From contig NZ_LT629735.1 of NCBI RefSeq assembly GCF_900104925.1, forward strand, positions 900,291-964,290: a stretch of 64,000 nt of DNA, in the 5' to 3' direction. The notes beneath the pieces were generated by a model. That model had not been told where the DNA came from. It did not search any database and saw only the letters and a program-made list of their open reading frames with translations. Shown in pieces: positions 37,285-54,165 of this stretch. Numbering within the stretch: position 1 is the stretch's first letter; each line of letters starts with the position of its first letter. A program made the position numbers and the translations under genes. The DNA comes from Opitutus sp. GAS368. Its GTDB lineage: Bacteria; Verrucomicrobiota; Verrucomicrobiia; Opitutales; Opitutaceae.

Positions 37285-37593
37285 TTATACGTTGATGGTG
37301 ATATCGACGCCGGACGGAAGGTTGAGCTTCTTGAGTTCGTCGACGGTCTGGGCGGTGGGCTCCAGGATGTCGATGAGGCGCTTGTGCGTGCGGGATTCGA
37401 ACTGCTCCATGGACTTCTTGTCCACGTGCGGGGAGCGGTTGACCGACAGCTTCACGATGTGCGTGGGCAGCGGGATGGGACCCGAGACGCGGGCGCCGGA
37501 GCGCTTGGCGGTTTCGACGATTTCGAGGGCCGACTGGTCGATGACCCGATAGTCGTAGCCCTGGAGTTTGATGCGAATGCGTTGGCCTTTCAT
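37285..37593 (-). CDS. rpsJ: 30S ribosomal protein S10
   Basis: S10 is a 30S head protein and the NusE antitermination factor. The 102-aa protein contains [40 protein letters not shown] in family order and the [14 protein letters not shown] segment. It lies 28 bp after fusA. tuf, often found between these two genes, is absent here. Confidence 0.98.
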
Positions 37594-37621: not shown

Positions 37622-39817
37622 TCAGGTGCGAGCGGGGCCCTTGGCGTTGGACTCCACGATCTTGGCGAGCTGCGAATTCGGGACCTGCGCGAAGTGCGAA
37701 GGCGTGATGGACGCGCTGGCGCGGCCCTTCGAAAGCGACCGGATGTCGGTGACGTAGCCGAAGAGGAGTTCGAGCGGCACGTGGGCGGTGATGATGCACG
37801 CGCCGGCCTTGTTATCCATGCCCTGGATCTGGCCGCGGCGACGGTTGATGTCGCCCATCAGGTCGCCCTGATATTCTTCCGGGGTGGTGACCTCGACGCC
37901 CATGATGGGCTCGAGCAGGATCGGGTTGGCCTTCTTCATCGCGTCCTTGAACGCGAAGATGCCGGCCATCTTGAACGCCATTTCGGACGAGTCGACCTCG
38001 TGGAACGAACCGTCGACGATCTTGATGATGACGTCGACCACCGGGAAGCCGGCGATGACGCCGTTGTTGGCGCCCTCGAGGATGCCGTCGGTCGACGGCT
38101 TGATGAATTCCTTCGGGATGGAACCGCCGACGGTCTCGTTGATGACCTCGACGCCCTTCCCCTTCTCATTCGGCTCCATCCGGATGACGACATGGCCGTA
38201 TTGGCCCTTGCCGCCGGACTGGCGGATGAACTTACCCTCGCCGTCGGCCGCCTTCTGGATGGTCTCGCGGTAGGCGATCTGGGGCTTGCCGGAAGTGGCC
38301 TCGACCTTGAACTCACGCTTCATGCGGTCGATGATGATCTCGAGGTGCAGTTCGCCCATGCCGGCGAGGATGGTCTGGCCCGTGTCCTGGTCGGTCTTGA
38401 CGCGCAGGGTCGGGTCCTCGGCAACGAGGCGCTGGAGCGCGACGCCGAGCTTTTCCTGGTCGGCCTTGGAGTTCGGCTCGATGGACATCGAGATGACGGG
38501 CTCCGGGAAGGACGGTGGTTCGAGGCGGATGTCGAAATCCTCGTCGCACAGGGTGTCGCCGGTGATGACGTCCTTGACGCCGACGACGGCGCAAATGTCA
38601 CCCGCGTAGGCGACCTCGATTTCCTCGCGCTCGATGGCGCGCATGAGGACGAGACGGGACACGCGCTCGGTGCGGCGGGTGCGGGGATTGTAGAGGGACA
38701 TGCCGCGCGGCAGCTGGCCGGTGTAGACGCGGAAGAACACGAGGCGGCCGACGAACGGGTCGTTCCAGAGCTTGAACGCGAGACCGGCCATCTTGGCCTT
38801 GTCGCTGACGACCGCCTCGACCGGCTTGCCGTCGCTGTCCTGGCCCTGCATGGGCGGGACGTCGATCGGGCTCGGGAGGTAGTTGACGACACAATCCAGC
38901 AGGCGCTGCACGCCCTTCTTCTTGAAGGCGGAGCCAGGGAACACGCCGGTGAACTGGAGGGAAATGGTGGCCTTGCGGACGCCGAGCATCAGCTGCTCGA
39001 CGCTGATCTCCTCGCCATTGAGATACTTCTCGGCGATGACATCGTCGAAGTCGGACACGGCCTCGATGAGCTTGTCGCGATACTCCTTGGTCTGCGCCTT
39101 CATGGCCTCGGGGACCTCCATCGTGACCGGCTTCATGCCGAGCGGGTCGGCCGGGTTGTCCTCGAAGGAATAGGCGACGTTCTGCACGAGATCGACGAGA
39201 CCGGTGAAGTTCTCCTCGGCGCCGATCGGCAGGTAGAGGGCGTGGGCGTTCGCCTTGAGCTTGTTGCGGATGTCGTCGATGCAGCGGAAGAAATTCGCGC
39301 CGACGCGATCCATCTTGTTGATGAAAGCGATGCGGGGGACGCGGTATTTGTTGGCCTGGCGCCAGACGGTCTCGGACTGGGGCTGCACGCCGGCGACGGC
39401 GTCGAACACGGCGACGGCGCCGTCGAGCACGCGGAGCGAGCGCTCCACCTCGGCCGTGAAGTCCACGTGTCCGGGGGTGTCGATGATGTTAATGCGCTGC
39501 TTGATGCCCTTCCAGGGGCCCCAGGAGGCGTTCCAGGCGCAGGAAATGGCGGCGGCGGTGATCGTGATGCCGCGCTCGCGCTCCTGCTCCATCCAGTCGG
39601 TCACCGTGGTGCCCTCGTGGACCTCGCCCATCTTGTGGACGGCGCCGGAGTAGAAAAGAATGCGCTCGGTCGTCGTGGTCTTGCCGGCGTCGATGTGCGC
39701 GGCGATGCCGATGTTGCGGGTCCACTCGAGCGGGAACGGACGGTCCTTCGAGTTGACGGGCGAGGTCTTCGCCTTGTCGGTGACGACGGTGATGTTGATG
39801 GGAGAAGCGACGGACAT
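37622..39817 (-). CDS. fusA: Elongation factor G
   Basis: EF-G drives translocation and ribosome recycling. The 731-aa protein has the G domain with [17 protein letters not shown], a normal switch I ([12 protein letters not shown]), IDTPGHVDF and [12 protein letters not shown], then domains II-V including [18 protein letters not shown]. It is longer than usual because of about 28 extra N-terminal residues and a short insertion ([16 protein letters not shown]) before the DTPGH motif. The start at MSVASPINI is the only Met before the G1 motif in a natural position. It lies 13 bp after rpsG. Confidence 0.97.
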
Positions 39818-51841: not shown

Positions 51842-52417
51842 TCAGCTTTCAGAGGCGCGCTGGACCTGCCAGTATTCGAGTTCGACGGGCGTAAACCGAC
51901 CGAAAATGGAGACGGAAATCTTGAGCTTGCCGCGGGCGGGGTCGACCTCGTCGACGCGGCCCGTGAGGTTGGCGAAGGCGCCGTCGGTGATCTTGACCTC
52001 CTCGCCGACTTCGAAGGTGACCTTCGGGATTTCCTTGCCCGAGGCGGCCTCGATGCGGGCCTTGATCTCGTCGATCTCAGCCTGGCGCAGGGGCGCGGGC
52101 TTGTCGCCGCCGACGAAGCCGATGACGCCGCCGGCATCCTTGACGAAGTAGAACGGCTTGATGATCACCTGGGCGTTCTCATCGAACAGCTTCATGTTGA
52201 TGAACACGTAGCCCGGGTAGAGCTTGCGGACCTTGGTCGACTTCTTGCCCCCCTTGACCTCGGACACGACCTCCGTGGGCAGCAGCACCTCGGTGATGAA
52301 GTCATCGAGTTCCTCGGCCTTCTTGAACTTCTCGATGTAGTTCTTCACCTTGTTCTCCTGGCCGGAGAGGGTGTGGAGCGCGAACCATTGGGCGCCGGTG
52401 GAGGTCTGGGTGGTCAT
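51842..52417 (-). CDS. nusG: Transcription elongation/termination factor NusG
   Basis: NusG binds RNA polymerase and couples it to ribosomes or Rho. The 191-aa protein has the NGN domain ([30 protein letters not shown]) and the C-terminal KOW domain ([21 protein letters not shown]). It lies 12 bp after secE and 41 bp before rplK. Confidence 0.97.
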
Positions 52418-52664: not shown

Positions 52665-52740
52665 TGGCAGGCGCGGAGGGAATCGAACCCCCAACCAACG
52701 GTTTTGGAGACCGCTACTCTACCAATTGAGCTACGCGCCT
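52665..52740 (-). tRNA. tRNA-Trp (CCA anticodon)
   Basis: The cloverleaf folds: acceptor AGGCGCG/CGCGCCT, D arm with GCTCAATTGGTAGAGT, anticodon loop CTCCAAA (anticodon CCA) and T arm GGGGGTTCGATTCCCTC. The discriminator is G and the 3' CCA is encoded. It lies between tuf and secE and is probably processed from the tuf-secE transcript. Confidence 0.96.
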
Positions 52741-52828: not shown

Positions 52829-54019
52829 TTATTCGACGATCTCGGTCACGCGGCCGGCACCGATGGTGCGGCCACCTTCGCGGATGGCGAACTTCTGGGT
52901 CTTCTCCATGGCGATCGGCACGATCAGGTCGATGTCGACGGCGATGTTGTCACCCGGCATGATCATCTCCACGCCCTTCGGCAGGTTGACGACGCCGGTC
53001 ACGTCCGTGGTGCGGAAGTAGAACTGGGGACGGTAGCCGTTGAAGAACGGCGTGTGGCGGCCGCCCTCGTCCTTCGAGAGGACGTAGATCTCGGCCTTGG
53101 CCTTCTTGTGCGGCTTGATGGACTTCGGGGCGGCGATGACCTGGCCGCGCTCGATGCCTTCCTTTTCAATGCCGCGGAGCAGGATGCCAACGTTGTCGCC
53201 GGCCTGGCCCTGGTCGAGGAGCTTGCGGAACATCTCGATGCCGGTGACGACGGTCGTGGTCGTGTCCTTGAGGCCGACGATCTCGACGGTGTCGTTGAGC
53301 TTGCAGATACCGCGCTCGATACGGCCGGTCGCGACGGTGCCGCGGCCGGTGATCGAGAAGACGTCCTCGACGGACATCAGGAAGGGCTTGTCGAGCTCGC
53401 GCGCGGGTTCGGCGATCTCGTTGTCCAATGCCTCCATGAGCGCCTGAATCGCGGCCAGGCCCTCGGGCTTGCCCTCGAGCGCGGCGGTGGCGGAGCCACG
53501 GATGATCTTGGCGGCCTTGCCGTCGAATTGATACTTGGTGAGGAGATCGCGGATTTCCTCTTCGACGAGCTCGATGAGATCCTTGTCGTCGATGAGGTCG
53601 ACCTTGTTCAGGAACACCACCAGCTTCGGCACGCCAACCTGGCGGGCGAGGAGGATGTGCTCGCGGGTCTGCGGCATCGGGCCGTCAGCCGCGGAGACCA
53701 CGAGGATGCCACCGTCCATCTGGGCGGCGCCGGTGATCATGTTCTTGACGAAGTCGGCGTGGCCGGGGCAGTCGACGTGCGCGTAGTGGCGCTTATCGGA
53801 CTCATACTCCACGTGGGCGACCGAGATCGTGACGATCTTGGAGGCATCACGCACGGTGCCGCCCTTGGCGATGTCCGCGTAAGTCTTGACCTCAGCAAGA
53901 CCCTTGCGGGCCTGCGCGGAGAGAATCGCGGTCGTCAGGGTCGTCTTGCCGTGATCGACGTGACCGATGGTGCCGACATTGACGTGCGGCTTCTTGCGTT
54001 CGAATGTTCCTTTAGCCAT
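52829..54019 (-). CDS. tuf: Elongation factor Tu with non-canonical switch I
   Basis: EF-Tu delivers aminoacyl-tRNA to the ribosome. The 396-aa protein has [10 protein letters not shown] (P-loop), [12 protein letters not shown] (switch II with the catalytic His), NKVDLIDD (G4) and normal domains II and III. Switch I departs from the family: the nearly universal (E/K)ARGITI is replaced by RDASKIVTI (residues 58-65). Thr64, the Mg-binding Thr, is kept, but Arg and Gly are Lys61 and Ile62. Domain II and III motifs are standard ([27 protein letters not shown]). It is the only tuf in the window and sits between tRNA-Thr and tRNA-Trp. Confidence 0.97.
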
Positions 54020-54089: not shown

Positions 54090-54165
54090 TGGAGCCCAGA
54101 ACCGGATTCGAACCGGCGACCTCGTCCTTACCAAGAACGTGCTCTACCAACTGAGCTATCTGGGC
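54090..54165 (-). tRNA. tRNA-Thr (GGT anticodon)
   Basis: Acceptor GCCCAGA/TCTGGGC, D arm GCTCAGTTGGTAGAGC, anticodon loop TTGGTAA (anticodon GGU, Thr), T arm GCCGGTTCGAATCCGGT, discriminator T and encoded CCA. It is the first gene of the tuf-secE-nusG-rplKAJL-rpoBC unit, an arrangement similar to thrT-tufB in other bacteria. Confidence 0.96.

Follow-up and report, generated by a model that had tools for sequence, protein, structure and literature searches.

A recurring alternative form of switch I in the only EF-Tu of Opitutus sp. GAS368

The only tuf gene of Opitutus sp. GAS368 encodes an EF-Tu with an alternative switch I, which we call class B: it is the usual form in the order to which this organism belongs, and one of three recurring forms that are patchily distributed over the six phyla sampled. 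The gene lies in a 64,000-nucleotide stretch of the genome, referred to here as the window. The original prediction, that KIVTI stands in place of RGITI in EF-Tu, describes the sequence correctly. The observation is sound and, for this clade, ordinary; what is notable is the spread over phyla of a second type of switch I that is well defined.

The switch I core of the window's EF-Tu is two residues longer than that of E. coli (DNAPEEKARGITI), and the equivalent of Thr61 stands 17 residues past the aromatic residue at E. coli position 46, compared to 15 in the canonical protein. Canonical D50, P53, R58 and G59 are all lost, and where canonical EF-Tu has RGITI the protein has KIVTI. The earlier reading of this segment had the altered letters right (Arg and Gly to Lys and Ile, preceded by GGTVRD) but overlooked the two-residue extra length and put the Arg of RD at 58, one position too high; it is residue 57. 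It also held that the other GTPase elements are normal, which they are: the P-loop GHVDHGKT, the Mg-binding Thr64 (equivalent to Thr61), the DCPGH of switch II and the NKVD of G4 are all intact. The P-loop Asp of the monovalent-cation site is kept as Asp22. The switch I Gly of that site is absent, its place being taken by Ile62 when counted back without gaps from Thr64; the carbonyl of Ile62 could still bind a cation. In G5, the window's EF-Tu reads SAT compared to SAL in E. coli (53486-53488; residue 178, E. coli 175).

The protein scores 662.1 bits against TIGR00485, above the equivalog cut-off of 522.4 bits, and contains the GTPase domain together with domains 2 and 3 (PF00009, PF03144 and PF03143). 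Its closest named relatives by EF-Tu, at 95% identity, are Lacunisphaera and other Opitutia. A second, canonical tuf was sought in the 4.15 Mb single-contig genome and none was found; the six other matches are 29–34% identical and fit other GTPases. The class B form therefore serves as EF-Tu, and it must work because it is the only one the cell has. Presumably it is the ordinary housekeeping EF-Tu of the cell and essential, and as the product of the only tuf it would deliver aminoacyl-tRNA to the ribosome. With rpsJ as the ORF next to fusA, no tuf occupies the tufA position of the str operon (Table 1). An assembly error as the source of the variant is ruled out, since each of the 30 loci read in this order (33 genomes matched) is class B, including five that come from other genomes assembled as a single contig.

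Table 1. Features of the tuf region and related genes in the window (positions of the window)
Feature	Coordinates	Strand	Basis or comment
tuf, EF-Tu, 396 aa, sole copy in genome	52829..54019	-	TIGR00485 and Pfam GTP_EFTU, D2, D3
Class B switch I core, residues 51-65	53825..53869	-	Translation and comparison with canonical form
Leu142 codon (E. coli 139)	53594..53596	-	Directly after G4 NKVD; class-linked site
Val21 codon (E. coli Val20)	53957..53959	-	Beside P-loop Asp; co-varies with residue 59 in class B/C
tRNA-Thr (ggt)	54090..54165	-	Upstream of tuf; tufB-type locus
tRNA-Trp (cca)	52665..52740	-	Downstream of tuf
nusG ORF	51842..52417	-	tufB-type context, then rplK, rplA, rplJ; named from sequence
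fusA, EF-G	37622..39817	-	Switch I ERERGITI
rpsJ, ORF next to fusA	37285-37593		Named from sequence

As had been predicted, the EF-G of the same genome retains RGITI. Six other GTPases of translational type were read in this genome and named from sequence; five have xGI[TS]I and the IF-2-like one has GGITQ; a seventh Pfam match reads as Der-like. Because five of these six share xGI[TS]I, RGITI is likely to be the ancestral form of switch I.

Across six phyla, 351 of the 354 EF-Tu proteins read fall into three forms. Class A (117 proteins) is APEExxRGITI; class B (140), two residues longer, is GGTVRDxxKxVTI; and class C (94), five residues longer, is exemplified by ASESQGRRDxTKILTI. These counts include repeats, and some genomes were taken twice; among the 336 non-identical proteins the numbers are 111, 132 and 90. 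Where it was measured, the spacing from position 46 to Thr61 is 15 in 115 of 116 class A proteins, 17 in 117/117 of class B and 20 in 94/94 of class C. Counting back from Thr61, the residues that are invariant in addition to the defining ones are P53 and E54 in class A (defined by R58-G59) and T61 in classes B and C (defined by R54, D55 and K58). Residues that define a class (R-G of A; R, D and K of B and C) are invariant by construction, but it is not by construction that only 3 of the 354 proteins lie outside all classes. K and D are placed at 58 and 55 by an ungapped count from Thr61, which makes this a putative structural correspondence. The 15 switch I residues of the window's EF-Tu recur identically in a protein of Patescibacteria (L095) and one of Planctomycetota (L191).

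Among the loci read, Verrucomicrobiota (in the sense of GTDB) contributed 30 B, 25 A and 35 C; Planctomycetota 18 B, 23 A, 5 C and 2 near-B; Gemmatimonadota 20 C and 8 A; Elusimicrobiota 16 C and 14 B; Patescibacteria 25 A, 4 B and 1 C; and Acidobacteriota 36 A, 12 C and 1 eroded. The two near-B proteins and the eroded one were counted neither as A nor as B/C. Because loci were taken as the best matches to a class-B query, together with chosen families, class A is under-sampled and these counts are not prevalences. Within the taxonomic class that includes the window's order, the 12 loci read from other orders (33 genomes matched) are all class A. Of the best 80 of 583 loci retrieved with the class-B query, 75 are B (one of them, L038, partial), 5 are C and none has RGITI; they are titled Opitutia, Planctomycetes (Pirellulales, Phycisphaerales, Kuenenia), Elusimicrobia, Shapirobacteria, Gemmatimonadetes and Lentisphaerae. 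Where a Verrucomicrobiota genome had a tuf match, it was one per genome (186/194). Genomes with no match numbered 8/194 in Verrucomicrobiota, 4/59 in Planctomycetota, 12/41 in Gemmatimonadota, 6/31 in Elusimicrobiota, 4/59 in Patescibacteria and 19/60 in Acidobacteriota, and the final pattern passed over L038 (which lacks residues 1-46), L194, L210, L241, L242 and one of the 50 Acidobacteriota loci.

To call RGITI near-universal, as the original prediction did, is thus too strong, with two other forms common in the sampled phyla. Nor is the variant rare: beyond the window's order, class B recurs in Planctomycetota, Elusimicrobiota and Patescibacteria, and class C, the longer form, is common among the other Verrucomicrobiota, Gemmatimonadota, Elusimicrobiota and Acidobacteriota. 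Since 234 of the 351 classified loci lack RGITI (in a sample biased toward class B), we would not treat this motif as defining the EF-Tu family. One outcome that the prediction named as refuting it, that the variant is already described as the norm for its clade, holds in spirit given the 30 loci of the order, although no paper describing it for Opitutia came to light.

Several individual proteins deserve mention. Two Planctomycetota proteins, L201 and L213, are the near-B forms and lack RD (GGTQHGADKILTI and GGEQRGETKILTI). Three Acidobacteriota proteins (L344, L346 and L354) carry a class C variant, KADAK[TN]FRRDATKILTV, in place of KASESQGRRD. One planctomycete has two class B EF-Tus (L188 and L305), of which one is strongly diverged and 60% identical to the window's (L305 lies on G249 C1 at ~6.634 Mb). 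A metagenome-assembled genome titled Acidobacteria (G581; loci L038 and L341) has, besides its own class C tuf, a short contig whose tuf shares 97% identity with that of the window and which is probably Opitutaceae contamination.

The history of the classes was examined in EF-Tu trees with switch I masked. In a 173-row tree (thinned at 87% identity), phylum requires 4 changes, which is the minimum, and class 12; in a 111-row tree (thinned at 82% identity from 303 rows, plus 6 references), the numbers are 5 and 16; and with Acidobacteriota added they are 9 (minimum 5) and 17. A 154-row tree leaves out six repeated Acidobacteriota rows. The backbones are weak: of 170 inner branches, 22 are starred, and the class changes that starred branches force number only 2 with 173 rows and 5 with 111 rows. 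A single clade of all B and C was rejected overall (AU p 0.0024) and within Patescibacteria (AU p 0.0055). Within Planctomycetota it was not rejected (AU p 0.59, without the long branches L305 and L312 and the two near-B proteins); here the constrained tree outscored the free one, which indicates that the quick search misses trees.

Switch I class is independent of the tuf locus. Verrucomicrobiota of classes A, B and C have tuf in the tuf-secE locus (142/150, with 8 lacking a locus call), and Patescibacteria of all three classes have it in the str operon (29/32, with 3 lacking a call), both judged by short protein motifs. Because A, B and C share one locus within a phylum, we reject as a general rule the idea of two old paralogs sorted by locus, with tufA of one class and tufB of the other. 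Such sorting does hold in two-class Acidobacteriota where the contig allows it to be seen, and Elusimicrobiota lean likewise.

Three Acidobacteriota genomes (G583, G613 and G639) each hold one class C and one class A tuf, 75–76% identical. The class C gene follows fusA in G583 and G613, the contig of G639 ending too near for a call, and in all three genomes the class A gene is flanked by tRNA-Thr and tRNA-Trp, with the L11 gene nearby. A fourth genome, G599, again has its class C tuf after fusA; the tuf at its tRNA/L11 locus is eroded in switch I. This copy (L376, on contig C204) reads KAGEQKAAGVPLNS, with Thr61 apparently changed to Pro and the reading frame intact; it is either a decaying or a repurposed EF-Tu. 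We infer that the two-class genomes are a step toward tuf replacement, and they could make the replacement of a motif directly observable. Mixed classes were not found among two-copy Gemmatimonadota, Elusimicrobiota and Patescibacteria, in which 10 of 10 second copies are of the same class as the first.

Shifts in class accompany a shift at residue 139 (E. coli numbering). Leu at this position co-changes on 9 of the 12 branches where class changes; a binomial calculated on the best tree gives p about 5e-9, and a permutation p 0.0005. Of the 812 column/residue states tested, this is the only strong class signal outside switch I; residues 119 and 179 give weaker signals (1e-4 to 2e-4). The Treekit independent-pairs test had too few starred pairs for significance. 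In Acidobacteriota class C, residue 139 is K, A or V, with Leu in 1/12, so a rule of Leu in B and C fails there. Recast as 'no Met/Gln' after some Acidobacteriota sequences were known (this phylum lay outside the scan), the rule gives Met or Gln in 89/117 class A proteins and 0/234 of classes B and C over all six phyla: 64/81 A and 0/222 B/C in five phyla, and 25/36 A and 0/12 C in Acidobacteriota. Among non-identical proteins the figures are 63/80 and 0/211 in the five phyla and 22/31 and 0/11 in Acidobacteriota. The expectation that the switch I change would be matched by another change, in EF-Ts or ribosomal proteins, is therefore borne out in part: there is such a change, but it is located inside EF-Tu itself. 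Any covariation with EF-Ts, L11 or L7/L12 inside a single phylum would be confounded with a small number of clades.

A looser association was seen between residues 20 and 59. In classes B and C, Thr59 occurs with Ile20 in 25/32 proteins and Ile59 with Val20 in 54/61; the pair shares 4 change branches compared to 0.2 expected, and with only 3 starred independent pairs this is not significant. Residues 20 and 60 form the hydrophobic gate. Residues 134 and 247 were flagged by a phylum-stratified scan, and neither changes with class on the tree. The altered antibiotic response that had been anticipated finds no counterpart in the sequence, as the positions of the kirromycin, GE2270A and pulvomycin sites are all canonical.

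We consider it probable that class B is an alternative EF-Tu switch I with class C as its longer sister, and that the classes are exchanged by way of a stage with two tuf genes, with switch I repositioned. A different account is that Opitutia received an entire class B tuf from a Planctomycetota-like donor, and that the patchiness elsewhere reflects whole-gene transfer into the resident locus. A clade of Opitutia B and Planctomycetota B was not rejected (AU p 0.18, without L305 and L312 and with the first 12 Planctomycetota A rows only), so transfer of this kind may have taken place in the window's order, and the dissimilar tuf pairs of Acidobacteriota are proof that a single cell can contain two classes. 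As a general account it seems unlikely to us: the best masked trees place the A, B and C proteins of Verrucomicrobiota in one group (support 85, unstarred), one B and C clade is rejected overall and in Patescibacteria, and the genes lie in the usual tuf locus of their phylum whatever their class, where this is resolved. Moreover, it is mainly at E. coli residues about 48–63 that B and C proteins resemble each other across phyla more than they resemble class A of their own phylum.

The shortness of this tract would also suit convergence, in which RGITI was replaced many times independently by the same RDxxKxxTI through point mutations and short insertions; the existence in Planctomycetota of two near-B proteins that lack RD also speaks for it. 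However, the spacings measured are 15, 17 or 20 in all but one protein, and 15 identical residues are common to proteins of three phyla; both would be hard to reach repeatedly, and we judge convergence improbable. Still less credible is protease evasion, whereby the loss of Gly59 in B and C would protect from Lit-like enzymes. Lit cleaves EF-Tu between Gly59 and Ile60 (PMC3014915), and Gly is indeed absent there in B and C. Yet Lit-family peptidases (PF10463) are rare, being found in 3 of 387 Verrucomicrobiota genomes (G140, G162 and G415), and the EF-Tu of G140 and of G162 is itself of class B or C and lacks the cleavage site, the EF-Tu of the third lying outside the loci read. Neither the rarity of the peptidase nor the classes in G140 and G162 supports evasion.

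Returning to exchange through a two-tuf stage, the most likely route of a class change would run through two coexisting tuf genes, with local conversion, whole-gene transfer or both, and end in the loss of one copy; some Acidobacteriota may still show the stage of coexistence. In the protein, counting back from Thr61, EExxRG would become RDxxK[T/I], and the acid-base pair at 55 and 58 would be kept as D-K instead of E-R. Switch I would still close on Mg-GTP through Thr61, leaving a protein that works as EF-Tu. It would be positioned differently, with Gly59 replaced by Ile, Thr or Val and the hydrophobic gate repacked. An AlphaFold model of the window's EF-Tu adopts the GTP arrangement (TM 0.93 to 1EXM and about 0.55 to GDP forms), although switch I itself has pLDDT <50 and is unreliable there.

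In translational GTPases, the P-loop Asp and the main-chain carbonyl of the switch I Gly hold a monovalent cation (PMC4342817 section 12). PMC4509514 describes the same Asp/Gly site, states that the cation adds little to catalysis and names a switch I gate residue. With the P-loop Asp kept and the switch I Gly lost, an altered cation site and gate in class B is a guess, though a testable one. It is tempting to go further and regard switch I as an exchangeable module, with three discrete versions swapped, in several phyla, among otherwise vertically inherited EF-Tus through mixed tuf pairs. We think this less likely than not; if true, the versions would differ in cation and gate chemistry, each demanding its own kind of residue 139.

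Models of GTP hydrolysis and tRNA release by EF-Tu treat RGITI as universal. A widespread class that naturally lacks its Arg and Gly offers a means to test what in switch I is required, and also the proposed role of the monovalent cation and how highly conserved proteins change a core motif. By title or abstract in the open-access literature, we found no description of the classes and their cross-phylum pattern, of the link to residue 139 or of the two-class genomes. The variant goes unmentioned in the relevant passages of PMC1780047 and PMC4342817, and in those of PMC3444138 EF-Tu serves as a tree marker only.

In its domains, P-loop, Thr61, DCPGH, NKxD, length and locus, the window's protein is like canonical EF-Tu (TIGR00485; E. 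coli, Thermus), and it is 62–65% identical to the solved E. coli and Thermus proteins, with a GTP-form fold. It differs from them in the two additional residues of switch I, in having A and G for D50 and P53 (aligned from the left) and D, K and I for E55, R58 and G59 (counted back from Thr61), and in Leu at 139 and SAT instead of SAL in G5. The motif itself has probably been in databases for a long time; UniProt entries of Rhodopirellula, Opitutus and Gemmatimonas presumably already show these switch I forms. Jenkins and Fuerst reportedly described in 2001 a 'unique 11-amino-acid motif' in planctomycete EF-Tu and called it planctomycete-only. In class B proteins of Planctomycetota, the 11 residues GGTVRDATKTV would match such a motif. 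Whereas that motif is reportedly confined to planctomycetes, class B is found here also in Opitutia, Elusimicrobiota and Patescibacteria. Finally, EFGII, Ria1, Snu114, eEF2, aIF5B and eIF2gamma deviate at the cation-binding Gly of switch I (PMC4342817 section 12). These are like the window's EF-Tu in that the Gly is not conserved, but they belong to other subfamilies, whereas here it is the main EF-Tu that deviates, with its P-loop Asp kept.
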